Shown here: in pieces, positions 4,673 to 44,707 of the stretch
Position numbering within the stretch: position 1 is the stretch's first letter
How the letters are laid out: each line of letters starts with the position of its first letter
Assembly (NCBI RefSeq): GCF_036178845.1
Contig: NZ_CP108070.1
Location: forward strand, 11,408,001 to 11,472,000
Length of the DNA: 64,000 nt
Direction: 5' to 3'
Source of the DNA: Streptomyces sp. NBC_00271
Lineage (GTDB): Bacteria > Actinomycetota > Actinomycetes > Streptomycetales > Streptomycetaceae
Notes under the pieces: generated by a model
The model's database searches: none
What the model was told of the DNA's origin: nothing
The model's input: the letters and a program-made list of their open reading frames with translations, nothing else
Made by a program: the position numbers and the translations under genes

Positions 4673-4711
4673 GGTGTCTCCTGAGGGCTCCGTGCGGCGC
4701 ATGGCTGGTGA

Positions 4712-6809: not shown

Positions 6810-6843
6810 CGGCGGAGTGCTCTCCTCGGAGTCGCGACGCATC

Positions 6844-6872
6844 TTGACTGGTCGGCTTCTCTGATGAATATA
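6844..6872 (+). promoter_or_regulatory. Candidate promoter for the ammonia-lyase/amidohydrolase pair
   Basis: TTGACT at 6844-6849 and AATATA at 6867-6872, 17 bases apart, lie in the short divergent gap between the LysR gene and the lyase. The -35 is close to consensus, the -10 only moderate. The gap is the expected place for the LysR-type T-N11-A operator, which I could not fix to one site. Confidence 0.35.
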
Positions 6873-6900
6873 GGTCGGAAACGTTCGCTGGACCGAATGG

Positions 6901-8043: not shown

Positions 8044-8116
8044 TCCCCACCACTTCGTTCCCCTGCGGTCACGGTCACCGCCGCACCGTTTTGCGACGAC
8101 TTCTGAGAGCCAGGTC

Positions 8117-9391: not shown

Positions 9392-9394
9392 CCA

Positions 9395-9546
9395 CTACCG
9401 GCCTCCGCGCCAGTCCCGCAGGGCAGAGTAGGCGAGGAAGCAGAAGGCGTCCTTGCGGCCCGCGACGAGATCGGGGCGGTTGAGACCCAAGACGCGGATG
9501 GTGTGTTCGCCCGTGGCAGTGCGGTGGCTGTACGCGCCGCTGCGCA
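9395..9546 (-). pseudogene. C-terminal fragment, possibly of an HNH nuclease
   Basis: On the minus strand the reading frame TGEHTIRVLGLNRPDLVAGR, continuing KDAFCFLAYSALRDWRGGR, ends at 9395. The 'I.VLGLNRP.LV..R' pattern recalls the C-terminus of retron/Septu (PtuB-like) HNH proteins. Everything upstream is replaced by the RHS fragment on the other strand, so at most a tail remains. Assignment is by pattern memory only. Confidence 0.25.
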
Positions 9547-13725: not shown

Positions 13726-14760
13726 GGGGATACGAGGGACAGCGTCTAGCTGCCGTTGGTGGGCTGGCCGTTCAGGGCCGGGCCCAGGTCTACCGGGGTG
13801 GATGTGGCGTTCGGCGGGGGAGGGAGGACGATGGGGGGCTGGCCGGCGGGCGGGACCGGCGGGGTCATGTCCGACTTGGGCAGCTTCGGTGGGGTGGTCT
13901 GCTTGAACAGCGTGGTGTCGAAGTCGACCAGGCCGGTCTTCTCCATCACCGTGATGTGATCCAGGACGGTGTCGTTGGCCTGGTCGGCCAGGGCGCGCAC
14001 CAGGGTGTTCTTCGTCGTCGAGCGGATCTTTGCCACGGTGTTGAAGATCGAACCGTGCGTCTGGCGAAGAATGTTGGCGAAGTCGATGTCGAACTGCTTG
14101 CCGGTGTCCGCCTTGAGGGCGGTGACGAAACCTTCCTGCTGCGGGCTGGCCACGTTGGGCAGCGTCACGTTCAGCATCGGTGCGATCTTGCGGCAGGTCT
14201 CGTCCAGCGCCGCGTGCCCGTCGATGAGGTGCTGACTGGCGGTGAGGACCCCCTTGCTCTGCCCCTTCTGGAGGCCGATCTGCCCCACCGGGTGCTCCCA
14301 CAGACCGGCAGCGCGCACCGCCACCACGAAGGCCCGGTCACCCTCGGTCAACGGCCCCCACTGGGTGTTGGCGATGATCCGGTCGTTCGAGGTCGACACG
14401 GTGTCAACTCCGAGCATTGATGGGTAGACCAGCGCGCCAAGTGTCAGGGCCAGCGCGCCCCCTACGAAGATACCGCCCACCATGTTCAGCGAACGTTGCA
14501 CCGTTCCTCCTGCCCGTCAAGAAAGCCGCCGGTCCGTCATCGCCCGACTGGGGCGGACGAAGAGCATTACGCACACGGCGCCGGTCAGGTTCACCCGGCC
14601 CGGAAAAAGGGTTCATGAACCGCGCACGGGAAGCGCGCGAGTGTGCGCGACGACGGCACACGGCGTCTTTGGATGGTCCGGGTGCCAGGCTGGTCCAGAG
14701 CGAGGACGGCCGGGCAGCGCGGGTGACCTGCGGCGCGACCAGGAACTGGAGATCGGCAGG
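13718..14760. repeat. Inverted duplication, arm 1 (about 1.04 kb)
   Basis: This segment recurs in opposite orientation at 44708-45757 with only scattered base differences, covering the whole DUF4142 gene, its 5' region and about 250 bases beyond. The inner boundary is the sequence CGTATCCCCCGACATGGGTG (minus strand), present with one change in arm 2. IS5 fragments lie beside both copies. Homologous recombination between the arms would invert the 30 kb between them. Confidence 0.9.
13746..14501 (-). CDS. DUF4142 domain protein (copy 1, intact C-terminus)
   Basis: 251 residues. Residues about 8-30 (MVGGIFVGGALALTLGALVY) form a signal anchor or signal peptide; residues 50-200 are a helical ferritin-like DUF4142 domain (ALDETCRKIAPMLNVTLP, FANILRQTHGSIFNTVAKI), a family of secreted or membrane-bound bacterial proteins of unknown function. 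The tail is proline-rich (PPIVLPPPPNATSTPVDLGP). The tract coding PP is six C long here; the second copy near 45 kb has seven and a different tail. RBS AGGAGGAA lies upstream of the ATG. Function unknown. Confidence 0.82.
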   Translation of the reverse strand: MQRSLNMVGGIFVGGALALTLGALVYPSMLGVDTVSTSNDRIIANTQWGPLTEGDRAFVVAVRAAGLWEHPVGQIGLQKGQSKGVLTASQHLIDGHAALDETCRKIAPMLNVTLPNVASPQQEGFVTALKADTGKQFDIDFANILRQTHGSIFNTVAKIRSTTKNTLVRALADQANDTVLDHITVMEKTGLVDFDTTLFKQTTPPKLPKSDMTPPVPPAGQPPIVLPPPPNATSTPVDLGPALNGQPTNGS

Positions 14761-15085
14761 TCCGGCGTCAGCGCGCTGCCCGGTTCCACGAAGCTGACCG
14801 GCCCGGCGTCGGCGCGTTGGTCACCGATTCCCCGCATCGTCCCAGGGGTCAGGGCGCCAAAACCGAAGCAACGGTCAAGGCAGCCACCCCTGGCCTGACT
14901 AGCCATGAAGGGCCTCTGACTAAGTCATAAAGGGCCTCTGACTAGGCATTTTGTCGTCCGGATGCAGGTTCTCGCTTACCGCCTAGTGCCCTGACCGGGA
15001 GGGTTCGCCGGGTTGTCGCAGGCGGCGCAGGGTTCGCGGAAATCCGTTTCGAGCGTTGCCCTGGCGCCTCTACTGTGGCGCGGTG
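14761..15085. other. Intergenic with short tandem repeat
   Basis: No gene recognised. It contains the repeat cluster at 14890-14947 and the 5' region of the kinase gene at 15086. Confidence 0.5.
14890..14947 (+). repeat. Tandem repeat, about 22-base unit, 2.5 copies
   Basis: Units GGGCCTCTGACTA at 14910 and 14932, each preceded by AA, with spacers AGTCATAA and GGCATTTTG; a partial copy TGGCCTGACTAGCCAT precedes them from 14890. The unit carries in-frame-looking TGACTA stop doublets. Role unknown. Confidence 0.6.
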
Positions 15086-18344: not shown

Positions 18345-19920
18345 TAGCTACTTGCCCCTGAAAAAGGGTTTGGGCTGGTGACGGGGCCGGTGCTGTAGGA
18401 ATGCGAAACGCCGTCGGCCGGTCGGCGGTGTGTCCCTCACCGGCTGAGGACGGTCATCCGCTGGAGGTTGTAGGCGAAGATCCCCAGTCCGGCCCAGGTC
18501 TGGGCGCCGGCCAAGCGGCGCAGGCGCGTGCGACGGAAGCCGAAGCTGCGCTTGAGGTGACTGATGCGGGCCTCGACGCCGACTCTCCAGTTGCGCATCC
18601 GCCGGAATGGGCGGCTCTGTTCGTACTCACGCCGTGCCTTTCCAGGTTTCCCGGCGCGTTGCAGGCCGATCCGCTCGACACCGAGTTCAGCCAGGGCCAG
18701 ATCGTTGGCCGCGGTGCCGAAGCCGCGGTCGGCGACGACCGTGCCGGGCGGGCGGCCGGTCAGTGACACGGCGCGCTGCACCGAAGGAACCAGCTGTGGC
18801 GCATCGGCCGGATTCCCGCGCTGGACCTGATGGTCGACGATGAAGCCGCGTTCGTCCTCGGCCACGAGCGCGGTGTAGCCGAACTGGGTGGGGTGCTGGG
18901 GCTTGCCCTTGCGGATCGGCCGGGCGTCGGGGTCGGCCAATGAGACCAGCCGGTCGGGGATGGTGCGGATGCCCGCCAGCCGCAAGGCGGTCTGCCCCAG
19001 CAGCCGGCGGGTGCCCACCACGGTCTCGGCCAGCTCACCCACCAGGTGCGCGAGTCGTCCCGAAGGCTGCTTGCCCAGCGTGCGCCGGGCATTGCGCTCC
19101 ACCGCCGCCACGTCCCGCAAGGTCGCGCGGGCTACCGCGGCGATTTCACCGGTGAGCCGGTCGATCTCGCCCAGCGCCTGGCCGGTGCGCCGCCGCAGCG
19201 TGCGCGAGATCTCCTTCACGCGGCGTCCCGCAGCCCGGCTGCGATCACGGAAGCGGGTGCGCCTGGCTGCCCCGACGCCTTGATCCGCCCCACCAGCCGG
19301 CCCAGTTTGCGTACCCCGTGTTCGAGCAGGTCGGCGTCCGTGGGGTGGTCGATGTCGGCTTCCATCACGGTCGTGTCGATGCGCAGCTTGCGGCACCGCA
19401 GCAGCTTGTCCTCGACCAGCTTGCCCAGCAGAGCCGCGTTCAGCTCGTCCACCGCCTGCGCTCCGCCACGGCGTACCAGCTTGACCAACGTGGTCGGGTG
19501 CGGCACCGGGGAAGTCAGCGGGATACGGCAGAACCGGCGCCAGCTCAGCGAGTCCGCGACCTCACGGCACAGGGTCTCGTAACCCAGCTGGTAACGGTGC
19601 TTGAGATACAGCAGGCGCAGCAGCGTCTCCACCGGCACCGACGGCCGCCCCAGCCGCTCGGCGAACATCGCCCGCCACGGAGCGATGAAACGCTCGTCGT
19701 CCAAGAACGCGTCGACCAGGCTCAGTTCGGCGGATAACAGCCGCGCATGCTCCGGCAGTACCTCCCACCAGGCGTCTTGCACTCCCGCGACACGCAACAC
19801 CGCCCCCACCCCCGACCCCAAGACCCGTCTCCACTGTGACGGCCATAGCCCGGCCCTCACCAGCTCTCCCCAGAGGACAACCCAGAGGCAGACCCGGACT
19901 TCTTCAGGGGCAAGTAGCTA
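18345..19920 (-). mobile_element. Complete insertion sequence with 18-bp TIRs and 7-bp target duplication
   Basis: 1,576 bases. Both ends read TAGCTACTTGCCCCTGAA inward (18345-18362 and the reverse complement ending at 19920). Directly outside, AGGTCTC occurs at 18338-18344 and again at 19921-19927: a 7-base target-site duplication, showing a clean transposition event. Joining the flanks restores a DUF1707 reading frame that stops (TAA) at the insertion point. The element carries one transposase reading frame split by a frameshift. Confidence 0.93.
18437..19860 (-). pseudogene. DDE transposase of the IS, interrupted by a frameshift
   Basis: The N-terminal part (19860-19216) contains the InsH N-terminal-type region VDAFLDDERFIAPWRAMFAE, VETLLRLLYLKHRYQLGYE and the first catalytic Asp region RKLRIDTTVMEADIDHPTDA; the C-terminal part (19219-18437) has YTALVAEDERGFIVDHQVQR, GTVVADRGFGTAANDLAL and the closing SHLKRSFGFRRTRLRRLAGA. 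The downstream frame extends backwards as RTRFRDRSRAAGRR, expected transposase sequence. One extra G in the GGGG at about 19271-19274 (CCCC on plus) would join ASG to AARRTRFRD. So either a one-base deletion or a recoding site; the two frames also overlap as GTGA. Confidence 0.82.
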
Positions 19921-21708: not shown

Positions 21709-23253
21709 TCACGGGTTCTCGAGGTGGTGTCGGGCTGCGTCGATGTGCTGGATCAGGTTTTGGTATCGGTCGTGCAGTACACGGGCGGTGTGCCGGTCAC
21801 CGAGTTCGGTACGCAGACGCCACCGGTCGGAGAGTTCCACCGCGCGGTCCCGAAGCTCCGTCAGTGAGGCGGTGTTCGGCAGGCCGAGACGTTGGTGCGC
21901 GGCCCGGCCGTGTTCCCCGATGGCGTTCAGGAGGTCGTCGAGGTCCCGCTCGCCGGGTTTTGTCGCGCCTGTGACGACGCGCTGCAACAGGTCCAGTTCC
22001 CGAAGTCCGAGCTCTTCGCCGACGAAAGCACCGATCAGGGCGGCAGAGGCGTCCAGCCGATGTTTGTCCGGGTCGCTCAGGTGGCGACGCAGCCGGTGGT
22101 CGGCTTGGTGGAGCAGCTCCGCGGTGATCCGGATTTTCAGCAGGTCGGCGCGGTGGGTGAAGTGGTTGGTGAGCCGGGTACGGAGCTCTTCCAAGCCGCT
22201 GTGCCGGTCGAGGAGCTCCCGCAACTCGGTCACGGAGTCAACGCCGTCGCGTAGCAGCCGAGTGGCGATCAGTAGTCCGTATCCGGTGTAGCGGTCGTAC
22301 AGCTGCTTGCGGCGACCGGGGGCGAGTGGCAGACCGCGGTCGGGGCGGCAGAACATGTCCGCGCCGCGCAGTGCCGTCTCCAGTTGGCCGGCGGGCAGGT
22401 CAGCGAGTGTCTTGAAATCGCAGAGGTCCGACTCGTCCAGGGTGGCGGCGCTTTCCGCGAGTCGGCCGCACACCGGCTGGATCTCGAACAGCACTTCGCG
22501 GACTCTCGGCTTCGTCAGCATTGTGCTGATGATCTGTCGAGCTGCTTCGAAGGGGGAGTCGTTCGCGGGGCACAGATCCTCGACCTTGGTCATGACAGCT
22601 GTCGTGGTCACAGGGGAGCGGAAGGCCGATTCAGGCCCGAGGAACGTGCGCAGCATCTCCTGGTCGCTCTCGGCCATGCCCCGGTGGCTCATCATCACCA
22701 GGAGCGCGTCCGCCTCAGTGGACGCCTCGACCGTCTCAGCCCGCACCTCGGCGCGGGAGCGCTGGAGGAACTCGAGTGTCCCCTCGGAGTCCTCGCCCCA
22801 GATGGAGTCCAGGCCTGCCGTGTCGATCAGGTCGAAGCCGACGAGGTAAGGCTGGTCGGACACCACGTCGAGGAACTTGACTGAGGAGAGCAGCTCGCGG
22901 TTGTCGTCGCGGCGCGCCGCGTACTTCTCCAGCTCCTCGAGACTGGCCGACGTGGAGGTGCCGTCCTTGAAGTGAACGGTCATGGTGGGCGGCGAGCCGT
23001 AGCGGATGTGGTTGATGCTGTAGGAAAGCTCCAGCGTTCCGGTGGGTGTGAGCCGTTTCCCGAGGAGCGCGTTGACCAGGGTGGACTTTCCCTGGCAGAT
23101 TCGTCCGACCACGGCGACTCGCATCCTCGCGTCGAGGAGCCCGGCGCGTTCGGCGAGCGTGGTCCGTAGCCCGGCCAGTTCGGGTGCGCCGTCGAGCCGC
23201 TGGATCGCCTCGGCCAGCGTCTGCCGGAACCGGTCGGCCACTCCGCCGCTCAC
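21709..23253 (-). CDS. Dynamin-like GTPase B (last gene of five-gene operon)
   Basis: 514 residues from a GTG whose GTGA overlaps the preceding dynamin stop. G1/P-loop VVGRICQGKSTLVNALLGKR at about 48-67, with Gly-Lys-Ser-Thr at 55-58; G3 IDTAGLDS at about 143-150; G4 probably TKVED. The C-terminal half is helical (ELLDRHSGLEELRTRLTNHF, LRELDLLQRVVTGATKPGE) as in bacterial dynamin stalks; no obvious paddle or transmembrane helix. Bacterial dynamins act on membranes as pairs (for example DynA halves, LeoA/B-C), and this gene directly follows a second, different one, so a heteromeric GTPase is likely. Confidence 0.8.
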   Translation of the reverse strand: MSGGVADRFRQTLAEAIQRLDGAPELAGLRTTLAERAGLLDARMRVAVVGRICQGKSTLVNALLGKRLTPTGTLELSYSINHIRYGSPPTMTVHFKDGTSTSASLEELEKYAARRDDNRELLSSVKFLDVVSDQPYLVGFDLIDTAGLDSIWGEDSEGTLEFLQRSRAEVRAETVEASTEADALLVMMSHRGMAESDQEMLRTFLGPESAFRSPVTTTAVMTKVEDLCPANDSPFEAARQIISTMLTKPRVREVLFEIQPVCGRLAESAATLDESDLCDFKTLADLPAGQLETALRGADMFCRPDRGLPLAPGRRKQLYDRYTGYGLLIATRLLRDGVDSVTELRELLDRHSGLEELRTRLTNHFTHRADLLKIRITAELLHQADHRLRRHLSDPDKHRLDASAALIGAFVGEELGLRELDLLQRVVTGATKPGERDLDDLLNAIGEHGRAAHQRLGLPNTASLTELRDRAVELSDRWRLRTELGDRHTARVLHDRYQNLIQHIDAARHHLENP

Positions 23254-25208
23254 GAGTCCGTTCCCGGCAGTTCCTCGACCTCTTCCGAGAGACGCCCGAC
23301 GGCCTGCAGGGCTGCGACGAACGGCTGCTGCTCGGCGGCGAGTTCGCTGAGACGGCTCCGGGCCTCCGTCTCGGTACGCGTACGAGCCTGTTCCAGTAGC
23401 GGCAGGGTGTTGTCGAGGGTCTCCAGCTCCTGGGCAATGAGACTGTCCATCTCCGCGGTGATCGCCTCCGTGAAGTCCTCGATCTGTTCGGCTACGGCCG
23501 CCACGGTCGTCCGGTGTTGCCGGGGACGAGCCTCCCGAAGCACCTCGAGCAGTTCCGCGCGGCGCTTGCTCAGCTTCGCCGGGGAGATGCCCTCCTTGCC
23601 CGTCGTGTAGTAGCTTCCGGCTCCGGAGGTGATCGTCGTCTCCGGCATGTAGCTGACGCCGACCATCTTCGCGGTCACGCGTTCCGCGCCCTTGCCGAGT
23701 TCCTTGGCGATGGCCATGGCACCGCGTTGGAGCAGGTTGGGTTTTCCTCCGGTCCGGCTGACATATCCGCCGCCGATGGTCTTCCGGGTCTCCGGTACGT
23801 CGTGGCGGATCTTGCGGGTCTTGGCCTTGAGTGTCTGGAACGACGGCAGGCTGACGATCGAGACCGCCGCGGTGTGCCTCAGGACAGTGGTACTCAGCTT
23901 CAGTCCGCAGCGGGCCGCGCACTCCTGCTGGATGGCGGTGGCCCGTCGGCCGCCCCATTCGTCGACGCCACTCATCGCGAGCGCGAACTCGCTGTTCAGC
24001 TGCTGCTCCAGGCGTGCCGGACGGGTCAGGTACCACTCCTGCGCCAGGAGTTCGGTCTCACCGCGCTGCCAGATCTCGTCGAAGATCCGCGAGGCCCGTT
24101 GGGTCATCTCCCGCCCGAGTTCGGCGAGTTGCTCATGGATGTCGGTCCGCCACTGCGCGCTTTCCTCCCGGAGCCGTACGAGCCGGGCGTGCGAGGCCGT
24201 GGTCTCCTCCTCGAGCTCGGCCAGTCTCCTTCCGGTGCGGTCGCGCAGACTCGCCTCCTCGGCCCGCAGAGGATTGACCATGGCGTTCGCCGTCTCCTCG
24301 ACCGCGGCGAGCGTCCCGCCCAGCAGCACCCTGATCCGACGGTCGGCGAGTTGCTTCCACAGGGCCGCCTCCAGTTCAGAAATCCCGCTCTCTTCCAAGA
24401 ACGCCTTGTCGCCCGTGTCGAGGTAGTGCATCTTGTGGAGCCCGGAGACGGGCAGCACCGGTGTCTGGGCCAGGGTTCTGCCCGTGCGTTCGGCGACACG
24501 GCGCCGGGTCTCGGTGAGCAGATCCGCGTAGTCCGTCCGGGTGTCGATCATGTTGAGGGCTACCAGGAGGCCGTCCCGGGTGTCGGATGCCCGCATCAGT
24601 GTTCCGGCTGCGTAGAGGAAGTCGAGTTCTGCCTCGCGTAGCGGTTCGGTGACGCTCGCCACGAACACGATGGCGTCGGCCGTCGGGAGGACGTGCTCTG
24701 TGATCTTGGAGTGCACGGGGTGGATGCCGCCGACCCCCGGGGTGTCCATCAGAACGAGACCGGATTTGAGACGCCGGTCGGGGAGGAGGATTTCCACCAT
24801 GACCGCGTCCGCGTGGTCTGCCGAGCCGGCGTGGTCCGGTTCGCCCACGTAGGTTTCGATGTCCTCGCGGGTGATCGGTTTGCGCTCGGTGGCTCCGTCC
24901 GGGCCGGTGACCTTGGCGAAATACTGCTCGGTCTCGCCGTAGGCGACAGAGGTGATGAGCCTGGTCTTCGGCGTGGGAGCGACGGGGAACAGCGGGATCC
25001 GCAGGTCCAGCAACGCGTTGAGCAGCGTGGACTTGCCGCGCTTGAACTCGCCGCAGAGGATGACGACCAACTTGCCGTCGGTGAGCCGGGCCGCGGCCTG
25101 CCGCAGGCGTTCCGCAGTGTGGGGAACGTTCCGGCCGTCGGTCCGGGCGTCGAGGTCGGCGCAGAGGCTGAGGATTTCCTCGCGGAGTTCGTCGAAGGTG
25201 GCGGTCAT
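23250..25208 (-). CDS. Dynamin-like GTPase A
   Basis: 652 residues. P-loop LCGEFKRGKSTLLNALLDLR (Gly53-Thr61), G2 threonines in PTPKTRLIT, G3 LMDTPGVGG (Asp155-Gly158), and ALNMIDTR at the G4 position, where Asn-Met-Ile-Asp replaces the usual N/TKxD. A long coiled region follows (RRLAELEEETTASHARLVRL and further heptads), then a region with several glycines and aromatic residues (TIGGGYVSRTGG, TITSGAGSYYTT) that could be a membrane-contact paddle. Start and stop overlap its neighbours by ATGA and GTGA, implying near-equal production with patatin and GTPase B. Confidence 0.83.
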   Translation of the reverse strand: MTATFDELREEILSLCADLDARTDGRNVPHTAERLRQAAARLTDGKLVVILCGEFKRGKSTLLNALLDLRIPLFPVAPTPKTRLITSVAYGETEQYFAKVTGPDGATERKPITREDIETYVGEPDHAGSADHADAVMVEILLPDRRLKSGLVLMDTPGVGGIHPVHSKITEHVLPTADAIVFVASVTEPLREAELDFLYAAGTLMRASDTRDGLLVALNMIDTRTDYADLLTETRRRVAERTGRTLAQTPVLPVSGLHKMHYLDTGDKAFLEESGISELEAALWKQLADRRIRVLLGGTLAAVEETANAMVNPLRAEEASLRDRTGRRLAELEEETTASHARLVRLREESAQWRTDIHEQLAELGREMTQRASRIFDEIWQRGETELLAQEWYLTRPARLEQQLNSEFALAMSGVDEWGGRRATAIQQECAARCGLKLSTTVLRHTAAVSIVSLPSFQTLKAKTRKIRHDVPETRKTIGGGYVSRTGGKPNLLQRGAMAIAKELGKGAERVTAKMVGVSYMPETTITSGAGSYYTTGKEGISPAKLSKRRAELLEVLREARPRQHRTTVAAVAEQIEDFTEAITAEMDSLIAQELETLDNTLPLLEQARTRTETEARSRLSELAAEQQPFVAALQAVGRLSEEVEELPGTDS

Positions 25209-26425
25209 TCGGCGTCTCCTTCGGACGGGATGCGGTGCAACGGCTCTCCCAGTTCGGCGACGGCGCTGCGACGGTGCTCGTTCATGAAGGTCGCGACCTG
25301 GCCCACGGCGTCCTCGGCCCAGGCCCGGGACAGTTGTTCGCGCGCGTCGTCGTAGCCGGTCTCGTACAGTGCGTCGACCCGAGCGGGCGACAGGTCGAGG
25401 ACGGCGCTCAGCGCGCCCACCGGTCCCTTCGGCTCCAGCGGTCTGCTGGGCCGGATTTCGATCACCTCGTGGTCCGCGTACTCGCCTGGGTGAAACAGCG
25501 GGAGCGCCTTGAGGTGCACGGCGATCATCCGACGGCAGGGGATGCGGCCGACGAGCGCCCCGACCGGCATGTTCCCGCCTCCGAGCAGGTCCCCGTCGCG
25601 CATGGGCACACCACCGACGTTGCGCGGCGGCATCACGACCGGTATCGCGGCACTCGCCAGGATCACGTTGTGCATGGTCCGCAAGGGCAGGTCGTTGATG
25701 TACAGCCAGTCCGACCTGGCCTTGAACGCCCAGGAACGGATGATGTCGACGGCCCAGCCGACGCGCACCCTCCCGGCGGCCCGCACCGGGCCGTCGAGTT
25801 CGCGTACTTCCAGCAGGTCGCGCCAGCTCAACGGGACCAGGGCCGGGTCGACGCCGCGGAAGGTCGTCACATACATCGGCAGGCCACGGTGCAGCCCGCC
25901 GGGATCCACGTACCGGGCCAGCAGGTCGTCGAGGAACCCTGGCCGGAGCATGGGGCCGAGCGCCCGAGCCGGAAGATTGAGCAGCTGCTCCAGCGTCCCT
26001 TCATCCAGCGCAACGCCGGACGTGAACGGCGGCGGTCCGGTCTCCTCGGCGACATGCCGCCACACCTTGTACAGCAGCTCTGCGCCCTGGCCCAGCGTGG
26101 GGGCGGCGGCGAGCACGGCGCCGTTGAGCGCCCCGATACTCGCCCCTGCGACCGCGACGACCTGCACTCCCGATTCGGCCAGGAACCGGGCCACCCCCGC
26201 CTGGTAGGCGCCCTTGGCGCCGCCGCCAGCCAGTACCAGCCCCACCGGTCGGCGTCTGGGATCGTCGGCGACCCCGGATGTCCGGAAGGCCTCCACCGGA
26301 TCGCGCAGGCCGCGCGGCTGGCCCCCGGGCAGCGGCGCCCCGGAGCCGTAGGAGGGCGAGGCGGCATCCGATGCCCCACGATCCCCCACCCTGCGCGCGA
26401 TCCTCGCGACCTCAGCTGGGTCCAC
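25205..26425 (-). CDS. Patatin-like phospholipase
   Basis: 406 residues from GTG 26425, overlapping the upstream coiled-coil gene by 14 bases. Oxyanion loop LAGGGAKGAYQAGVARFL (glycines about 67-69), nucleophile Ser96 in AVAGASIGALNGAV, and the catalytic Asp about 277 in VPMRDGDLLGGG, where DGD replaces the usual DGG/DGA; ILASAAIPVVMPP is a family hallmark. Patatins cleave acyl ester bonds of membrane lipids. No signal peptide, so it acts from the cytoplasm. Sitting between a coiled-coil protein and dynamin GTPases, it is a candidate effector whose access to the membrane is controlled by partners (inference). Confidence 0.88.
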   Translation of the reverse strand: MDPAEVARIARRVGDRGASDAASPSYGSGAPLPGGQPRGLRDPVEAFRTSGVADDPRRRPVGLVLAGGGAKGAYQAGVARFLAESGVQVVAVAGASIGALNGAVLAAAPTLGQGAELLYKVWRHVAEETGPPPFTSGVALDEGTLEQLLNLPARALGPMLRPGFLDDLLARYVDPGGLHRGLPMYVTTFRGVDPALVPLSWRDLLEVRELDGPVRAAGRVRVGWAVDIIRSWAFKARSDWLYINDLPLRTMHNVILASAAIPVVMPPRNVGGVPMRDGDLLGGGNMPVGALVGRIPCRRMIAVHLKALPLFHPGEYADHEVIEIRPSRPLEPKGPVGALSAVLDLSPARVDALYETGYDDAREQLSRAWAEDAVGQVATFMNEHRRSAVAELGEPLHRIPSEGDAE

Positions 26426-27467
26426 TGCCGTGCTCCGTTCCCTGTGCTGTCGCCCGCTCCGCAAGGGGTGACGCGGCCCGGCGTGCCTGAAGAGCGGTGT
26501 CCGCCTGTTCGTTGACGACCTGGTGCAGGAAGCCGGCACCGGTGAGCCTCGAAGGCGCCCAGGAGGAGGGCATGTCGGTCCGCTCCCCTGTGAGCTGGTC
26601 GCGCAGTCTGCTGACGACGGGACCGCGTCGGACGTCGAGAGGCGGTTCGAGTCCGGCGCCCAGCAGTTCGGCAACCAGGATCGCGAGGTCGCCGCTGCCG
26701 ATGTCGTCCGCGGTCTCGGCGAGGATCTCCGCGACAGACCTCCGCTCGCTCCACGACACGGGGCCGGTGTCGAGGACGGCCTCGACCAGGTTACGACGGT
26801 AGGCAGTGTCGGCGGTGAGCTGCTCGTAGTGGCCGCAGGGTCCGGTGAAGACCTCCTGGGCCAACAAGGTCACCCGGCAGGTCCATGGAAGTCCCGGATA
26901 GGTCGCGCCGCTCTGCCACGTCCTCAGGGAGGCTTTCAACGACCGGTCGGATGCGTTCTTCACCTCCAGCGTGGTGACCCGCCGCTCCAGCCGGACCATG
27001 GCCAAGTCCAGTGTGTCGATGCGGCCTTGGAGCTTCGTCTCCAGATCGGCCGCGTAGTCGGCCAGGGCGGCCACCGCTTCGGCAAGGTCGGCGAGGCCGG
27101 CCTGTGCCCGACGGACGCTGTGTTCGGCGTGTGCGGCCACATACTGGGTACGCCTGAGATGTCCAGCGATCACCGCCACATCCGCGTCGACGGCCATACC
27201 GTGACGCAGCAGGCTGTCGACCCGCAGCGCCAACTCCCGCTGGTGGCCCACCAGATCGCGCTCAACCTTGGCTTGTTCTTCGCGGCCCCGTTTCCCGACG
27301 GCTCCGACCAGCCGCGCGATGCGCGAGCGCCCCGCCCGCTCTTCGACCAGCCGACTGGTCTGATCGATCTCGGCGAGGACCCGTTGCAGCAACTCCTTGG
27401 CGATCCTGCCCTGTGCTACCGGATAGTGCCGGAGCACCAAGTCGAGTTCGGCGTGAGCGCCTGTCAT
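26412..27467 (-). CDS. Coiled-coil protein, RdcB/YjcZ-like
   Basis: 351 residues without membrane segments. Helical and coiled through about residue 175 (VEERAGRSRIARLVGAVGKR; AQAGLADLAEAVAALADYAA; GRIDTLDLAMVRLERRVTTL), then a compact conserved-looking core: LRTWQSGATYPGLPWTCRVT and LLAQEVFTGPCGHYEQLTAD. That combination recalls the RdcB (YjcZ) family; in E. coli RdcB partners the dynamin-like RdcA (YjdA) to activate the diguanylate cyclase DgcE. I make that match from memory of motifs, so it is tentative. ATGA overlap with the Hsp70 gene upstream, 14-base overlap with patatin downstream. Likely an adaptor within the operon's complex. Confidence 0.6.
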   Translation of the reverse strand: MTGAHAELDLVLRHYPVAQGRIAKELLQRVLAEIDQTSRLVEERAGRSRIARLVGAVGKRGREEQAKVERDLVGHQRELALRVDSLLRHGMAVDADVAVIAGHLRRTQYVAAHAEHSVRRAQAGLADLAEAVAALADYAADLETKLQGRIDTLDLAMVRLERRVTTLEVKNASDRSLKASLRTWQSGATYPGLPWTCRVTLLAQEVFTGPCGHYEQLTADTAYRRNLVEAVLDTGPVSWSERRSVAEILAETADDIGSGDLAILVAELLGAGLEPPLDVRRGPVVSRLRDQLTGERTDMPSSWAPSRLTGAGFLHQVVNEQADTALQARRAASPLAERATAQGTEHGSGPS

Positions 27468-29059
27468 CGCCGCCCGCCCGTAGCCGCGTTGAGGGAAACA
27501 CTCTCCACGTTGGAGGAGTACTTATAGCCGTAGGTGATCTTCACGACACCGTCCGAGACCTCCATGGTCTGCACGGTCCTGCTTTCATAGGCGAAGGAGT
27601 TCTGCCAGAGACAGGTCCCGGTCATCATGTCGAAGGCCCAGCACTGATGTCTCACCGCCACGAACAGCACGCCGTCGCTGGTGGCAACGCACAGCCTCAC
27701 TTTCGCGGACACGTAGAACTGCTTTGTGGCCCAGTGCGGGAAGCCCCGCCGCTCGGTGGTGGCCAGCCAGTGACCTGACTCGACGCGGTCACCGGGGCGT
27801 GCGTGTCTGGCGCGCAGCACGCTGGAGTGTTCCGCCCTGAGCCGGACCAGCGTGCCATTGGGCAGCCGTACCCGGGCCAGCTCGTCCCCGGCCGAGAAGC
27901 CCGCTCCTTCCTCGACGTTCCAGTCGAGCAGCGTGCCGACGCCCCCGGGGAAGTCCCAGCGAAGTGGTTCCTCGTCGGCCACGTAGTCGAGCGGCATGCA
28001 GGAGCGGGACTCACCGCGGCTCGCCCAGGCGGCGGCGCCCCGGACGACGGCGAGTTCCGGGTCCCGGGCGGTACGGGGCGCCGAACCGAACGCCGCCTCC
28101 AGGGCCGTTGCCACCAGCGGCATGCGCGAGCTGCCACCCGCGATGAAGACTCCGTTGAGGTGCTCCGCCGCATATCCCGAGGAATCGAGCAGTGCCCGGC
28201 AGCATTCGACGGTCCGGTCGACCAGGTCCCCGACCAAGGCGTCGAACTGCTCACGGGTCAGGAGCACTTCGACGCCCAGAGACTTGATCTCCTCCGCCCC
28301 GTCGGGCCGGTCGCTGAGCTGGTGCTTCAACGCCTGCGCCGCGTCCATCACCTCGAGCCGGCCCCGGTTGGTGGCGTTGTACAGCTTCTCGATGTCCTCG
28401 TGGAGCGCGCACAGGTGGGCGGCCACCCGCTCGTCGATGTCGTAGCCGCCGCAGTCCTCGAGTGCCGAACTGGCCACCACCTCGTGGTCCCTGCTGCCGA
28501 CATGGACCAGCGCGGCGTCGAACGTGCCGCCGCCGAAGTCGTACGCCAACACCAGATCGCCGGGCTGGAAAGGCTGTCCGGACGGCGTGGACAGCGCGGC
28601 TGCGACGGGTTCGGGCAGCAGTTCCACGGCGGTGAAACCAGCCGCTTCCCCCGCGCTGATCATTTGTTCGTTCCGTCGGTCGCCCGTGCGGTACGCCGCC
28701 GGTACCGTCAGCACAGCGTGTGTGACCGGACCACCATGTACGGCCTCGGCCTCCCTGCGCAGTGTGGCCAGGATGGCCGTCACCAACTCGCCAGGGGAGT
28801 ACTGTCGCCCGTCGATCACGCTTGCCTGATTGTGGCTCAGTAGCCGTTTGATCTCGGAGCGGTAGTTGGCCGACCGGACTCCTTTGCGACGAGTCGCCAA
28901 CGAGCCGACCAGGATCTCCTCGCCGTCCACCAGCACCGAAGAGGGCCAGCCGAGTCTTCCGGTTGCGGGCTCCTGGAGCAATTCCAGCTGCCCGTCCACC
29001 AAGAGGGCCGCCGCCGTCGACGTTGTACCGAAATCTACGACCAGGACTGGTTCATGCAC
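27464..29059 (-). CDS. Hsp70-family ATPase with beta-rich C-terminal region
   Basis: 531 residues. Residues 1-355 are an actin-fold nucleotide-binding domain: VVDFGTTSTAAALLVDG (phosphate 1), VLAYDFGGGTFDAALVHV (phosphate 2) and GVFIAGGSSRMPLVATALEA (adenosine). The DnaK substrate-binding domain and lid are absent. Instead residues about 385-455 resemble a biotinyl/barrel-sandwich domain (LLDWNVEEGAGFSAGDELAR, ARPGDRVESGHWL), and the last 75 residues look like PQQ/WD-type blades (CVATSDGVLFVAVRHQCWAF; GTCLWQNSFAYESRTVQT). First gene of the operon; GGGGAG precedes the ATG. It may sense misfolded or foreign ligands and use ATP to gate its partners (inference). Confidence 0.85.
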   Translation of the reverse strand: MHEPVLVVDFGTTSTAAALLVDGQLELLQEPATGRLGWPSSVLVDGEEILVGSLATRRKGVRSANYRSEIKRLLSHNQASVIDGRQYSPGELVTAILATLRREAEAVHGGPVTHAVLTVPAAYRTGDRRNEQMISAGEAAGFTAVELLPEPVAAALSTPSGQPFQPGDLVLAYDFGGGTFDAALVHVGSRDHEVVASSALEDCGGYDIDERVAAHLCALHEDIEKLYNATNRGRLEVMDAAQALKHQLSDRPDGAEEIKSLGVEVLLTREQFDALVGDLVDRTVECCRALLDSSGYAAEHLNGVFIAGGSSRMPLVATALEAAFGSAPRTARDPELAVVRGAAAWASRGESRSCMPLDYVADEEPLRWDFPGGVGTLLDWNVEEGAGFSAGDELARVRLPNGTLVRLRAEHSSVLRARHARPGDRVESGHWLATTERRGFPHWATKQFYVSAKVRLCVATSDGVLFVAVRHQCWAFDMMTGTCLWQNSFAYESRTVQTMEVSDGVVKITYGYKYSSNVESVSLNAATGGRR

Positions 29060-30011: not shown

Positions 30012-31982
30012 TCACACGGTGTGGACGGTTCCGGCGTACCGCTGGGCGAACCGGGTGCCGGTAGCCGCGGTGACCGTCACGTCGTACCGCCCCTCGTCGG
30101 TGCGCCACGTCAGGCGGGTGCGGTCGCCGGCCCCGACCCACACGGTCCGCTCCTCGCCGGCGAAGTCGTTCGGCGTGATCGTGAACGCCGCCTCGGTGCC
30201 ACCGGCGTTGCGGAGCTCCAGCTCCAGCGAGGCGTGCTCCGGCTGCCCGGAGTGCCGCAGGGCCGCCGTGACCGACGGCACCGCCACATCGTCCTGGCCC
30301 GCGCGGACGACGGTGCCGGAGAAGCGGCGGACGAAACCGTCGGCGCCGTACACGGAGAAGTCGTAGCGGCCGTCGGTTTCGGCGGCGTCCCACACATAGG
30401 TGCGGGACGAGTGCGGCGGGACCGTGAAGGGCGTGCCGGTGAAGGGCAGCGAGACGTTCGGTAGCACGCTGAAGTGGTAGCCGACGCTGCCGTCGTTGGT
30501 GAGCGTGCAGGTGACCTTGCCGGTGGTCCGGTCGACCGTGACGTCGGCCCACGGACGATACGGCAGTGCGCGGTGCGGGCGTCGGCCCTGCTCCTGCGCC
30601 GGCATGGACTGTTGGTCGGGCACCTTGACCGGCGGCAGGGAGCTGCCGGCGTCGGCCTTGGCCATCAGGGCGACCGTGTCGGGCAGCGTCGGGATGCTGT
30701 AGTCGGGCTTGCCGAAGTCGAAGCAACTGGTGAGGTCGCCGCATACGGTGCGCCGCCAGTCGGAGATGTTGGGCTCCCGCACACCGGTGACCCGCTCCAG
30801 GAAGCGCAGCACCGACGTGTGGTCGAAGACCTGGGAGTTGACCCAGCCGCCGCGCGACCACGGCGACACGACCCACAACGGCACCCGGCTGCCCAGGCCG
30901 ATGGGCTTGCCGTTCGCGAACTCGTCCTTGGTGCCCGGCTCGGGGAACGGCGGTATGACGTGGTCGAAGTACCCGTCGTTCTCGTCGTACATGAGCAGGA
31001 AGACGGTGTGCTTCCACACCTCCGGGTTGCTGAAGAGCGACTGCAGCGCGGTGTCGACCCAGTGGGCGCCGTAGTCGGGGCTGGCGTTCGGGTGCTCGCA
31101 GAACAGGTAGGGCGCCACCAGCCAGGAGACGGTGGGCAGAGTGCCGTCCTTGCAGTGCCGGTCGAAGGCCGTGAGGTCGAACTTCGTCATGGCGTTGACA
31201 TAGCGCGGATCGTCCTTGGGAAACGCGTGGAACTGCTTGAAGTACGACAGGGCGTTGTCGTCGTAGTCGCCGTAACGGTCGTCCGAGCCGTCGGGGTTGT
31301 GGTAGACGCGCCAGCTGATCCCGGCTTCCTCCAGGCGCTCGGCGTACGTCGTCCAGTCGGCCACCGGGTTGCCCGTGACCGGTGTGTTGTCGGTCCACGG
31401 GCCGGTGGTGCCGTCGACTCCGGGTCCGGCCGTGCCGGTCCACAGGTAGAGGCGGTTGGGGTCCGTGGGGCCGTTCAGCGAGCAGAAGTAGCCGTCGCAG
31501 AGGGTGAAGGCGTCGGCCAGCGCGTACTGGTAGGGGATGTCCTGCCGGGTGAAGTAGCCCATGGTCCGCTCGCCCTTGGCGGGGACCCACTTGTCCATGG
31601 CGCCGCCGTTGACGGCCGTGTGGCCGGTGTCCCAGTCGTGCGGAAGGCCGCCCGCGTTCTGTGCGTTGTACTTCGTGGTGTCCATGCGGAACGGCAGGAG
31701 GTAGCCCTCTTTGCGGCCTCTGGCGGGCTGGCGGAACACCGGGTCGCCGCCCGGTAGGACGGCCGCCTGGCGGTCGGCGAAGCCCCGTACGCCACTCAGG
31801 GTGCCGAAGTAGTGATCGAAACTGCGGTTCTCCTGCATCAGGATGACGACGTGCTTGACGTCGGCGATGCTGCCGTGGCGGGCGTCGTTGCCGGCGGCCT
31901 CGGCCGTGCCGGGGAGTCCGGCCGCGAGGGCGGCTCCGGCCGCGGCGGTGCCGATGAAGGAGCGGCGGCTGATCTCGGTCAT
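30012..31982 (-). CDS. plcC: Tat-exported phosphocholine-type phospholipase C
   Basis: 656 residues. Twin-arginine signal at 1-30 (EISRRSFIGTAAAGAALAAG, cleavage after AEA). Alkaline-phosphatase-fold phosphoesterase: HVVILMQENRSFDHYFGTLS (metal and nucleophile region), YQYALADAFTLCDGYFCSL, LLMYDENDGYFDHVIPP and RVPLWVVSPWSRGGWVNSQ with FDHTSVLRFLE are diagnostic of bacterial phospholipase C. Two C-terminal DUF756-type beta domains follow (from about 515). It hydrolyses phospholipid head groups outside the cell for phosphate scavenging. The secreted EEP-fold gene lies 29 bases upstream and the pair sits behind a likely PHO box. The symbol is a best guess among plc paralogues. Confidence 0.9.
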   Translation of the reverse strand: MTEISRRSFIGTAAAGAALAAGLPGTAEAAGNDARHGSIADVKHVVILMQENRSFDHYFGTLSGVRGFADRQAAVLPGGDPVFRQPARGRKEGYLLPFRMDTTKYNAQNAGGLPHDWDTGHTAVNGGAMDKWVPAKGERTMGYFTRQDIPYQYALADAFTLCDGYFCSLNGPTDPNRLYLWTGTAGPGVDGTTGPWTDNTPVTGNPVADWTTYAERLEEAGISWRVYHNPDGSDDRYGDYDDNALSYFKQFHAFPKDDPRYVNAMTKFDLTAFDRHCKDGTLPTVSWLVAPYLFCEHPNASPDYGAHWVDTALQSLFSNPEVWKHTVFLLMYDENDGYFDHVIPPFPEPGTKDEFANGKPIGLGSRVPLWVVSPWSRGGWVNSQVFDHTSVLRFLERVTGVREPNISDWRRTVCGDLTSCFDFGKPDYSIPTLPDTVALMAKADAGSSLPPVKVPDQQSMPAQEQGRRPHRALPYRPWADVTVDRTTGKVTCTLTNDGSVGYHFSVLPNVSLPFTGTPFTVPPHSSRTYVWDAAETDGRYDFSVYGADGFVRRFSGTVVRAGQDDVAVPSVTAALRHSGQPEHASLELELRNAGGTEAAFTITPNDFAGEERTVWVGAGDRTRLTWRTDEGRYDVTVTAATGTRFAQRYAGTVHTV

Positions 31983-32011
31983 GGGAGGAAGGTCCTTCGG
32001 ATCGGTCGCGG

Positions 32012-33775
32012 TCAGCCGCGGGCGGGCAGGGAGAAGGTGACGACGGCGGCGGCGTGGTCGGAGGGCCAGCCGTTGGCGGCGGTGTCCGGCACCGGTCGGG
32101 GCCAGCCGGTGAAGAGGTTGTGCGCCTCCAGCACCTTGAGTCGCCCGGCGAACTGGATCTGGTCGATCCGGTCCTGCGGTTCCGCGCCCCCGCCCTCGTG
32201 CTGCGTCCTGACGGGGGACCAGGTGATGCCGGGCGTCTTCAGCGGGCCGGGGTGGGCGTCGCGGAAGGCGTCGACGAGTCCGGCCCGCTCCAGCGTCTCG
32301 GTGACGGGCCACCGCACCCGGCCCACTCCGCCGTGCGCGGACGCCGTCCGGCTCGTCCAGTCGTGGTGGGACGGCGAGGCGAGTCCCGCCGCCAGCACGA
32401 GGGGGGTGCGCGCGGCGAGTTCCGGTCGCAACGCGGCCACCAGCGCCTGCACCTGCTGGTAGCGGGTGGTCGCCTTCTCCGCAGCCTCGGCCTGCGCGGG
32501 GGTCCGGCCCGCGAGCAGCGCGTACGGCCCGTAGTCGGCTTCGTCCAACCGGGCCGTCCACAGACGCACCGTGCGGTCGCCGGGCAGATGCAGTGTCGCA
32601 GCGGCGGCCGGCAGTGCCGCGGTCGGGGCGACGACGTCGGTGAGCGGATAGCGGCTCACAAGGCCCAGGCCGCCTGCTTGGTGCACGTGCCAGCCGAGCG
32701 CACCGGCGAGGTTGCCGGCCCCGTTTTCACCGCACTCCTGGAGCGTGACGACGTCCAGGTCCTGGGTGAGGACCAGCCGCAGCTGCTTCTCCAGGAACCC
32801 GTCTACGTGGCTACCGGCGTCCCAGAGGTTCAGCGTGGCGACCTTCAGGCGCAGCCGGTCCCGGGCGGCGCGCACGGGTACCTGGACAGCGACGGTGTCG
32901 GTGCCGACGGCGCTGTCGGTCACGGCGACCACGATCCGGCCGGGCGTGCGCGGGCCGGAGGCCGGGGCTCTGCCGTTGACCGTGCCGTCCTCGGCCACCG
33001 ACAGCCACGGGTCACCCGCGACCCGTCTGAAGGTCGCGCCGCCGGGGGCATTGCCCTCCGGTCTGACCCACAGACCACCCAGCTTCACCGAAACGTCCGT
33101 GCCGGCGGTCTGTGGGGCCGTGGTCAGGGCGTCCACCACCGCATGCGGGCGGGGGATCACGGGGCGGACAGCGAAGCTGAACGCGGCCGAGCGGGCGAGG
33201 ACGCCGTAGCCGTCCTTGGCCAACAGGTAGGCGGTGTACGGCCCGCCGCTCAGACCGGAGGTGTCGAGGGTGATGTCGCCGGCGGCGCCGGGGGTGTACT
33301 CCCAGGCGAGGGAGGAGCCTTGCCCAGGCACCCGGTCGCCGTCGTACACACCGATCCAGTTCTTCGCGTCGGGTGTGTCCGTCGTCCAGTGGAAGGCGAC
33401 CTTGTCCCCCTCGTGCGGGGTGGCTGTGGTCAGCTTGATCGAGTCGCCGGCGGGCGCGCCCGCGAAGCTGAACGACTCTGTCCGGGCGAGGATGCCGTAG
33501 CCGTCCTTGGCCAGCAGATACGCGGTGTAGGGGCCGTCGATCAGGCCCGAGGTGTCGAGGGTCGTCCGGCCGGACGCGCCGGGCGTGTACGCCCACACCA
33601 GGGAGTTGCTGCCACTGCCGGGCAGCCGGTCGCCGGGGTAGACGCCGATCCAGTTCTTGGGGTCGGGCGCGTCCGTCGCCCAGGTGAAGGACAGTTTGTC
33701 CCCGAGCTGCGGGGCTGTCGTGGAGCCGGTCGTGATGCTGCTCCCGGACGCTGCGGTCTGTGAGAGGGATGACAC
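32012..33775 (-). CDS. EEP-fold phosphohydrolase with two tandem lectin-like repeats
   Basis: 587 residues from a GTG at 33775 with GGAGAGG upstream. Residues about 14-105 and 111-192 are two copies of one beta domain (DPKNWIGVYPGDRLPGSGS / DAKNWIGVYDGDRVPGQGS; GPYTAYLLAKDGYG in both). Then an Ig-like segment, and from about 300 an endonuclease/exonuclease/phosphatase domain: LKVATLNLWDAGSHVDGFL, DVVTLQECGENGAGN, LVLAAGLASPSHHDW, DRIDQIQFAGRL and GWPSDHAAAVVTFSL (catalytic His). Export is expected from the context, but the N-terminus is not a typical signal peptide, so the true start may differ. Co-transcribed with the phospholipase C. Confidence 0.82.
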   Translation of the reverse strand: MSSLSQTAASGSSITTGSTTAPQLGDKLSFTWATDAPDPKNWIGVYPGDRLPGSGSNSLVWAYTPGASGRTTLDTSGLIDGPYTAYLLAKDGYGILARTESFSFAGAPAGDSIKLTTATPHEGDKVAFHWTTDTPDAKNWIGVYDGDRVPGQGSSLAWEYTPGAAGDITLDTSGLSGGPYTAYLLAKDGYGVLARSAAFSFAVRPVIPRPHAVVDALTTAPQTAGTDVSVKLGGLWVRPEGNAPGGATFRRVAGDPWLSVAEDGTVNGRAPASGPRTPGRIVVAVTDSAVGTDTVAVQVPVRAARDRLRLKVATLNLWDAGSHVDGFLEKQLRLVLTQDLDVVTLQECGENGAGNLAGALGWHVHQAGGLGLVSRYPLTDVVAPTAALPAAAATLHLPGDRTVRLWTARLDEADYGPYALLAGRTPAQAEAAEKATTRYQQVQALVAALRPELAARTPLVLAAGLASPSHHDWTSRTASAHGGVGRVRWPVTETLERAGLVDAFRDAHPGPLKTPGITWSPVRTQHEGGGAEPQDRIDQIQFAGRLKVLEAHNLFTGWPRPVPDTAANGWPSDHAAAVVTFSLPARG

Positions 33776-33865
33776 GGTGTTGGATCCTCTCCGCCCCGGG
33801 TGCGGCCGTGGCGACACCCGGGTGAGCAAAGTTGTCTAGATAACTTCGCTCCCCAGCAAGCCGTC

Positions 33866-43654: not shown

Positions 43655-44393
43655 TCAGTCGGGGTTCGGCAGGGCCTGGAGCCGGGTGAAGGCCGTGGTG
43701 ATCACGTCGGTCCAGGGCCAATGGCGGGCCAAGCAGAGGATGCGTCGGCGGCCGGTGGTGACCAGGCGGGCGGCGGCGGTGAACAGCCGCAGCCGGAGGC
43801 GCTTGGGCTCCCAGCGGCGCGCTCGGCCGGGCAGGGCGAGCATCGGCATCCATGCCAGCAGCTCCAGGGCGAGCTGGACGATCTCCAGCCAGCCTGGTTC
43901 TGGGCGGTGCGGTGCAGTGGCAGGTTGCGCAGGCCAGTGTCGCGAGCGGCGCGGATCCGGTCCTCGGCGCGGGCGCGCTGGCGGTGCCGCAGTTCCAAGA
44001 GCGCGATCGCGGTGCCCGTGGTGTTGGCGGCGAAGCAGGTCAGACGCATGCCGTCGGCGTCGGTGAACCTCAACTGCGCGCCGGGGTGGGGTCGTTCCTT
44101 GCGCACGATCAACCGCATCCCGGCTGGCCAGCCTTTGAGGACGTCACCGGCCAGTTCGGCCACCCAGGCACCGTCGCGAACCTGGCCGTCGGGTTCGACC
44201 GCCACCGTCCAGGCCGACTCCGGGACCCGCAGCACGGCGTGGTGGACCGCGTCGGTGATCGTCATCCCGACCGAGTAGGACAGCCACCGGCCGCGCCTGG
44301 TGAGCCAGTCGAGGAACTCGTGGGTGCCGCCGGCGGAGTCGGTGCGGATCAGGGTCTGCCGACCGCGTCGGTACTCGTGAAAGCCCGAGGTTA
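43655..44393 (-). pseudogene. IS1380-family transposase, 5'-truncated and frameshifted
   Basis: Minus strand: RRGRQTLIRTDSAGGTHEFL contains the first catalytic Asp; RGRWLSYSVGMTITDAVHHA, GDVLKGWPAGMRLIVRKERP, LRFTDADGMRLTCFAANTTG and LRHRQRARAEDRIRAARDTG follow in one frame up to GLRNLPLHRTAQNQ. A shift near 43885 leads to MPMLALPGRARRWEPKRLRL and WPWTDVITTAFTRLQALPNP. The N-terminus is replaced at 44393 by an IS5 piece on the other strand. Confidence 0.85.
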
Positions 44394-44570: not shown

Positions 44571-44707
44571 GTGCATCTTGGACATGAGCCGCAAGACATC
44601 ACCCATCGACGTATCGGAGAACCACCTCTTCACCCTCCAGCCGGCGCTCCGCGGACTGACCAACCCGCAAGCACCTTCACTCGTCGCAGCGATCGTCGTC
44701 AACGGCA

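Follow-up and report, generated by a model that had tools for sequence, protein, structure and literature searches.

A five-gene operon was analyzed in a 64,000-nucleotide stretch of Streptomyces sp. NBC_00271 (contig NZ_CP108070.1, positions 11,408,001–11,472,000), referred to here as the window. It encodes an Hsp70-type ATPase, an RdcB/YjcZ-like coiled coil, a patatin-like phospholipase, and two dynamin-like GTPases. RdcB and patatin genes recur as a pair in several phyla and are inherited together, and the adjoining nucleoside triphosphatase (NTPase) gene changes between relatives. The operon may well be a hybrid of this pair and a separate Hsp70/dynamin trio.

Operon organization

The window lies at 11.41–11.47 Mb of the 11.93-Mb contig (12.28-Mb genome), and thus towards one end. 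All five open reading frames (ORFs) are on the minus strand within positions 21709–29059 (Table 1). Joints were read directly as ATGA at 27467 (Hsp70/coiled coil), a 14-base overlap at 26412–26425 (coiled coil/patatin), ATGA at 25208 (patatin/dynamin A), and GTGA at 23253 (dynamin A/dynamin B). These confirm the coordinates and the overlaps of 4, 14, 4, and 4 bases reported in a first-pass annotation of this DNA. Patatin length assumes the GTG start that produces the 14-base overlap (frame open up to 26674), and dynamin B length assumes the GTG at 23253 (frame open up to 24036). A Pfam scan upheld the gene names, with matches to HSP70 (1.5e-48), Patatin (1.1e-20), and Dynamin_N (3.3e-19 for A and 1.1e-14 for B). 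The motifs looked for are intact in all four enzymes.

Table 1. Genes of the operon, in order of transcription; positions are those of the window
Gene product	Coordinates	Strand	Length (aa)	Remarks
Hsp70-type ATPase	27464..29059	-	531	first gene
RdcB/YjcZ-like coiled coil, putative adaptor	26412..27467	-	351	
Patatin-like phospholipase	25205..26425	-	406	GTG start
Dynamin-like GTPase A, IniA-like	23250..25208	-	652	
Dynamin-like GTPase B	21709..23253	-	514	GTG start at 23253

The five families occur together again in Streptomyces sp. MA5143a (L006), where identity to the window proteins is 44% for the coiled coil, 55% for the patatin, 49% and 52% for the dynamins, and 37% for Hsp70. Given this recurrence, the five-gene grouping is more than chance. 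Gene order in the window is Hsp70-RdcB-patatin-dynamin A-dynamin B. In L006, it is RdcB-patatin-dynamin A-dynamin B-Hsp70, so the order, whose conservation the first-pass annotation set as a check, is kept for four genes in one other genome, with Hsp70 last there. The L006 coiled coil and patatin are separated by a 6-base gap, and patatin and dynamin A by about 150 bases; by our own reading, the other two joints can be taken as GTGA overlaps.

Predicted enzymes

The patatin contains the motifs GGGAKG, GASIG (Ser96), and DG (Asp277). Neither Ser96 nor Asp277 varies among 20 aligned patatin relatives. The best-named relative, from Streptomyces mirabilis, is 98% identical, and for this reason the same-genus genomes of the surveys below are taken to be Streptomyces. 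The protein has the GxSxG serine/DG aspartate dyad of the phospholipase family, and lipase activity is predicted. Patatins of the cyclic-oligonucleotide-based anti-phage signaling system (CBASS; CapV), named at first as a precedent, share the family and the Ser/Asp dyad, but this candidate was dropped. The window patatin scores 11.8 bits on the CBASS lipase model against a cut-off of 200, and no CBASS family was found among PADLOC matches at 1e-15 for 37 hand-chosen genes of the 68 predicted window ORFs.

The Hsp70-type protein comprises a DnaK-like nucleotide-binding domain (residues ~1–346), a small beta region (~363–436), and a short beta tail (~444–524) common to six proteins, its own among them. 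The best PDB match is DnaK (2.7e-42, residues 5–359), and DFGTT, DFGGGTFD, and GGSSR motifs are present. A weak PQQ_2 propeller match fell under its cut-off in the Pfam scan. A plain DnaK chaperone was rejected, since the DnaK model scores 157.5 bits against a cut-off of 648 and the match stops at residue 346. In the AlphaFold model (pLDDT, a predicted local confidence score, 76.5), the part after residue 346 is modeled with moderate confidence as strands only, with no helical lid. By the DnaK model score and the AlphaFold model, the usual substrate-binding domain and lid are lacking. The nucleotide-binding domain has its motifs intact, and the earlier "chaperone-like sensor" is a guess because the substrate-binding domain is missing.

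Dynamin A best matches IniA in the PDB (6j72, 7.5e-28, residues 29–474) and has a GEFKRGKS P-loop, DTPG, and NMID. Dynamin B matches 5owv chain C (5.4e-13, residues 28–166) and has a GRICQGKS P-loop, DTAG, and TKVE. Tandem dynamin genes are also known from mycobacterial IniA/IniC and other pairs (5owv); the partners differ, being Hsp70, RdcB, and patatin in the window and IniB in iniBAC according to the available part of PMC6715688. PADLOC families LeoA (2.2e-23) and LeoBC (2.8e-12) match dynamin A. LeoABC, another precedent first suggested, was nevertheless discarded because the NCBIfam LeoA model gives 16.8 bits against a cut-off of 325; the neighboring genes also differ.

The RdcB-like coiled coil

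The coiled coil matched no family in Pfam, equivalog-model, or PADLOC library scans. Pseudomonas gingeri (L031) has a related patatin, and the gene at the corresponding position before it encodes YjcZ/RdcB (PF13990, 7.4e-65) and is preceded by a CrfC/RdcA-type dynamin gene (1.1e-150, below the equivalog cut-off). Iterated profile searches were run over 2517 ORFs from 80 patatin loci, L004, E. coli K-12, and the window. The profile started from E. coli RdcB reaches the window coiled coil at 1.5e-37, and the reverse profile, from actinomycete coiled coils, reaches E. coli RdcB at 2e-29. There are 42 matches common to both searches, and the RdcB profile gives at most one match per locus. Except in E. 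coli K-12, every RdcB match is the immediate 5′ neighbor of a patatin ORF or overlaps it; the patatin ORF of L044 is short and so begins 344 bases past RdcB.

Alignment to proteobacterial RdcB with hhalign, using no intermediate families, gave 95.7% (E 8.4e-9, 95 columns), versus 1.4% for a second coiled coil of these clusters used as a control. AlphaFold models the window protein (mean pLDDT 87.2, predicted template modeling score 0.61) with one 127-residue helix and a helical C-terminal region. By profile, the window coiled coil belongs to the RdcB/YjcZ family; the profiles and hhalign agree with its first label, "RdcB-like". At the level of predicted genes, this bears out the idea that an adaptor, a lipase, and membrane GTPases are encoded together.

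Distribution of RdcB–patatin loci

A patatin alignment used to scan a genome collection matched at least 80 loci; the fractions in this section hold for the best matches and are not a census. Among the matches listed, RdcB is directly 5′ of patatin, once fused to it, in 40 of the 80. An RdcA/CrfC-type dynamin accompanies 31 of these 40 pairs, a divergent Hsp70 accompanies three (L007, L011, and L018), and Hsp70 with a dynamin pair accompanies one (L006). In five, no such NTPase was found: L017, L024, and L030, which are at contig ends, L028, where no RdcA match was found, and L014. RdcA is absent from all 40 listed patatin loci that have no RdcB. Metagenome contigs of shared length (9914, 11661, and 12277) hint at Hsp70 linkage as well and are outside these counts. 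The window shows the same arrangement, with RdcB directly 5′ of patatin on the same strand and an NTPase gene adjoining. The wider conserved unit is thus NTPase-RdcB-patatin, usually with an RdcA/CrfC-type NTPase. The five-part unit first described is a set of genes that do stand together, but it seems to combine two modules that are also found separately.

Record titles of listed RdcB–patatin loci name Actinomycetota, Cyanobacteriota, Pseudomonadota, and Campylobacterota, with single contigs of metagenome-assembled genomes (MAGs) from Bacillota, Verrucomicrobiota, and Binatota. In a Verrucomicrobiaceae MAG (L017), the C-terminal half of RdcB and the patatin form one ORF where the contig begins, and an assembly error could account for the fusion. 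In L014 (Scytonematopsis, 4180–8661), where RdcA was not found, a double-GTPase pair (DO-GTPase1/2), each with a 402–404-aa neighbor, lies 5′ of RdcB–patatin, possibly as a further driver swap. Two tandem RdcA-type dynamins precede the pair in an Acinetobacter locus (L045, 4915–9027). The patatin of an Enterobacter plasmid triad (L100, 12885–15419) is split by an IS3-family insertion.

Searches that started from RdcB instead gave 42 matching records among 72,556 plasmids for the L031 protein and one Nostoc plasmid for the window protein; patatin is 3′ of RdcB in all three plasmid regions fetched. A class-level survey, which scores the top five candidates per genome and so gives lower bounds, found weak RdcB matches in 5 of 394 genomes besides the window's own. 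No patatin match was found in the three of these five that were fetched, and none of the five proteins was found at a weak match in G113. Actinomycete, E. coli-island, and Pseudomonas queries found no RdcB relatives in a viral contig collection, in scans that detect close relatives.

Actinomycetes have a further cluster type, Hsp70 (divergent)-coiled coil-RdcB-patatin, in L004, L007, L011, L018, and L095; in L004, a GDPD gene follows the patatin. Like the window, these clusters combine an Hsp70-type ATPase with RdcB and patatin, and both gene trees place L007 among the nearest relatives. They differ in their divergent Hsp70, an extra coiled coil, and the lack of a dynamin match. By eye, the L018, L095, and L004 clusters adjoin fatty acid/polyketide-type genes (ketoreductase, acyl carrier protein, and ketosynthase), a neighborhood that two same-genus genomes share almost unchanged with a Streptosporangium record.

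Gene trees

RdcB and patatin trees were built for 40 loci, after 3 of 43 were excluded as partial, and are concordant at deep splits. Cyanobacterial L028, L033, and L038 fall inside the proteobacterial group in both and, being placed alike by both proteins, are read from the trees as horizontally moved copies. RdcB and patatin distances correlate at 0.893 over the 40 loci, a value that still contains shared species history and was reached in 0 of 2000 permutations. Within groups, the correlations are 0.982 (actinomycete), 0.808 (cyanobacterial), and 0.887 (proteobacterial), reached in 1, 0, and 0 of 2000 permutations. RdcB and patatin are inherited together, and the NTPase gene changes between relatives.

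For each protein, 92% of bootstrap trees unite the seven Hsp70-type loci in one group (branch support 94/82 and 91/52). In both trees, this group neighbors L029, an actinomycete locus with an RdcA-type dynamin, and L007, with a divergent Hsp70, groups with the window and L006. On the simplest path suggested by the trees, a dynamin-driven triad would have entered Actinomycetes, the dynamin would then have given way to a divergent Hsp70 (L004, L007, L011, L018, and L095), and an Hsp70-dynamin trio would finally have taken the NTPase place in the line of the window and L006.

Hsp70/dynamin trios

At E 1e-15, dynamin-A-like proteins were found in 8 of 150 genomes from the same genus and in 29 of 197 at class level. 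Seven actinomycete regions were fetched from among the best non-window matches. In each, the dynamin is accompanied by an Hsp70 matching the profile of the window Hsp70; dynamin B is present in six, the seventh being cut by a contig end. RdcB and patatin were found in none of the seven. Hsp70 adjoins the dynamins on the same strand in five regions, lies ~1.9 kb farther on in L145, and is divergent and ~1.9 kb away in L147. One region is a second trio in the window's own genome (L143, G000:C1:8430500-8447500, positions 3470–9437), ordered dynamin A-dynamin B-Hsp70, without RdcB or patatin. The trio Hsp70s of L143, L144, and L146 carry WD40-type propellers, and that of L147 has none. The idea that Hsp70 always stands beside IniA-like dynamins was rejected, as weaker dynamin matches have no Hsp70 in short flanks. 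With flanks of ~1.5 kb and a profile that may also match ordinary DnaK, the Hsp70 profile matches only 4 of 37 short dynamin loci, each from one of the seven genomes.

The E. coli triad and RdcA/RdcB

By automatic annotation, dynamin-RdcB-patatin triads occur in E. coli islands, plasmids, cyanobacteria, and pseudomonads. As in the window, RdcB is directly 5′ of patatin on one strand, often overlapping, and both proteins are of the same families; unlike the window, one RdcA/CrfC-type dynamin of ~800 aa replaces Hsp70 and the dynamin pair. A Klebsiella oxytoca plasmid triad (L101) has a 4-base overlap at each joint, and a Nostoc plasmid triad (L102) adjoins an integrase gene. In a megablast search of 5426 complete E. 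coli genomes with the L101 triad, 2426 contained at least 80% of the triad DNA and 2596 gave any match. Among the matches listed, 18 of 20 E. coli records are annotated with all three genes. E. coli 55989 carries the triad on an island with antirestriction, yeeS, yeeT, cbeA, and frameshifted cbtA genes, which we take to be of the CP4-44 type.

Chromosomal rdcA-rdcB of K-12 (yjdA or crfC, and yjcZ) is the exception to the RdcB–patatin pairing: no patatin was found in the surrounding 13 kb. The K-12 RdcB falls with RdcB of island triads (96/81, on a long branch), which is consistent with a triad that lost its patatin and gained a new output. According to the available part of PMC6510439, RdcA binds RdcB by two-hybrid, the pair activates an output enzyme, the cyclic di-guanosine monophosphate (c-di-GMP) synthase DgcE, and GTP hydrolysis by RdcA is required, GTP being proposed as an inhibitor; no patatin appears in its main text.

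As first proposed, RdcA/RdcB is a precedent for the window, whose coiled coil is a member of the RdcB/YjcZ family by profile and has an NTPase gene before it that overlaps it; in E. coli, RdcB is likewise the partner of an NTPase, one that turns on an output enzyme (PMC6510439, available part). The precedent holds for RdcB. It does not extend to the dynamins, because dynamin A matches IniA and no window ORF, both dynamins included, matches the RdcA profile at 1e-20; the window has Hsp70 and two other dynamins instead. The E. coli chromosomal pair also differs in lacking an adjoining patatin.

Patatin and rdcB are listed as separate genes of an E. coli O118 genomic island, with no joint function proposed in the part of PMC13182975 available. 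In E. coli ATCC 25922 under drug, changes were reported in crfC (122), rssA (75, patatin domain), and yeeP (10) (PMC7696260, available part). ATCC 25922 is annotated with all three triad genes and has two places that match the island triad, so these changes may reflect exchange between the triad copies and not mutation of core genes, although this is a guess. Neither the triad nor the five-gene composition was found as a system in the open-access literature, preprints and subscription journals being outside that scope; this agrees with the first-pass annotation, which knew of no such five-part system.

Proposed mechanism and alternatives

We consider it somewhat more probable than its contrary that the operon is a hybrid in which RdcB and an NTPase gate the patatin. 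An output module, the RdcB-like adaptor and the patatin-family phospholipase, would be coupled to a driver module, the Hsp70-type ATPase and the pair of IniA-like dynamins. The RdcB-like protein, with the NTPase, would keep the lipase off or turn it on. A membrane or infection signal, a presumed trigger, would set off a nucleoside triphosphate (NTP)-dependent change in the driver, and this change would let the patatin hydrolyze membrane phospholipids. At most other loci, a single RdcA/CrfC-type dynamin would be the driver. We infer the complex partners, the gating and its direction, the membrane location, the trigger, and the biological role. Since unrelated NTPase folds stand in the same place, the conserved work would be NTP-dependent control of the patatin, not dynamin chemistry as such.

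Several observations weigh against this hybrid model. The five-gene set of the window is backed by one other fetched locus only, L006, in which Hsp70 is placed elsewhere. Occurrence is rare, with 3 of 392 same-genus genomes, and at order level one genome of 245 has the patatin at E 1e-40. The RdcB homology of the coiled coil is remote (11–27% identity to proteins not in the close group), and scanning the protein directly against Pfam gave no YjcZ match. The RdcB tree pairs the window with L007 and the patatin tree pairs it with L006, a conflict over the last step of the proposed history; a larger RdcB tree does not separate the Hsp70 group from L029. In the available part of PMC6510439, RdcA contacts DgcE and RdcB shows no contact with it, so RdcB may be a co-activator rather than a bridge. 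The same source describes RdcA as soluble and cytoplasmic and reports RdcA K82A, expected not to bind GTP, as fully functional, which fits relief of GTP inhibition better than a power stroke.

A broader proposal is tentative, and we would not yet bet on it: RdcB–patatin may be the core of a widespread, unrecognized class of NTP-gated lipases for immunity or programmed membrane damage, from which E. coli RdcA/RdcB would have descended by loss of the lipase. Its exchangeable drivers would be the RdcA dynamin, a divergent Hsp70, Hsp70 with an IniA-like pair, and perhaps double-GTPases. The DNA of this uncharacterized gene set is present in ~45% of the complete E. coli genomes searched. The adaptor-lipase pair appears to have switched its power unit from a dynamin to an actin-like Hsp70, which opens the NTPase contribution to experiment.

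The alternative that survives best is the same machine with a committed role, an anti-phage or abortive device whose NTPase would sense an infection-linked disturbance and unleash the patatin on the membrane of the infected cell. We regard it as quite possible, at a little under an even chance; the hints of defense are real but thin. Its patchy occurrence (the same 3 of 392 genomes) fits, as do the 55989 island (antirestriction, yeeS, and cbeA), triad DNA in 2426 of 5426 E. coli genomes, and its presence on plasmids. In Amphritea atlantica (L036, 1549–16192), the triad lies between ZorA2/ZorB2/ZorE2 (Zorya II) and a 2162-aa DruE-like helicase, and a type I restriction enzyme and AbiLi come after the triad of Pseudomonas matsuisoli (L021). 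WYL regulators control known defense systems, and they lie within ~2.5 kb 5′ of eight Pseudomonadota triads (8 of 8 candidates picked by eye).

Against a committed defense role, flanks showed no clean enrichment between 132 genes of 38 RdcB loci and 122 genes of 39 control loci, the latter mostly from other phyla and not matched by taxon. The genes were drawn at random (132 of 241 and 122 of 313) and scanned at E 1e-15, and ORF calls were crude and GC3-weighted (weighted by third-position GC content). Among the families compared, the best 25 of 45 and the best 25 of 27, WYL stood out (6 members) and other families were scattered in both sets. Among the 37 scanned window genes, PADLOC matched only a subtilase and IetS as neighbors. 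The operon is not a PADLOC-DB system; version 2.0.0 gave no family for the window coiled coil and Hsp70, or for RdcB of two other loci. Several triads stand among ordinary genes, and RdcB has no match in 50,697 phage records. The defense-island setting raised in the first-pass annotation thus holds for single cases (L036, L021, and 55989) and not as a clean enrichment in the flank scan or at the window.

Membrane upkeep is unlikely, though it has some basis. The dynamin pair and lipase would remodel or repair the membrane by fission and lipid turnover under envelope stress, without killing. IniA is the nearest solved structure to dynamin A and cuts membranes with GTP, and repair of compromised membrane is proposed by its authors (PMC6715688, available part); the GDPD gene after the L004 patatin points the same way. 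The patchy spread and the island, plasmid, and occasional defense contexts fit upkeep poorly. We doubt still more that the trio and the RdcB–patatin pair merely share a promoter without coupling. Both modules also occur apart, and in L006, the trio, with its joints readable as GTGA overlaps, follows the pair after the ~150-base gap. In the window, however, the pair is enclosed by Hsp70 and dynamin A with four overlapping joints, and relatives have an NTPase gene, RdcA or divergent Hsp70, before the pair. Signaling, in which the NTPase would report a nucleotide level and the patatin would make a lipid-derived signal rather than damage, is improbable: E. coli RdcA/RdcB do activate a c-di-GMP synthase with GTP as proposed inhibitor (PMC6510439, available part), but the enzyme adjoining in triads is a lipase and not a cyclase.

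Neighboring genes

Beside the operon, a transposase-like protein is encoded in two overlapping frames at 18437–19860 (by eye). On the same strand 5′ of the operon, secreted phospholipase C-like and endonuclease/exonuclease/phosphatase-like proteins are encoded at 30012–33829 (by eye). Two ORFs at 13746–14898 and 44391–45756 have the same starting sequences in opposite orientation and form an apparent inverted duplication.

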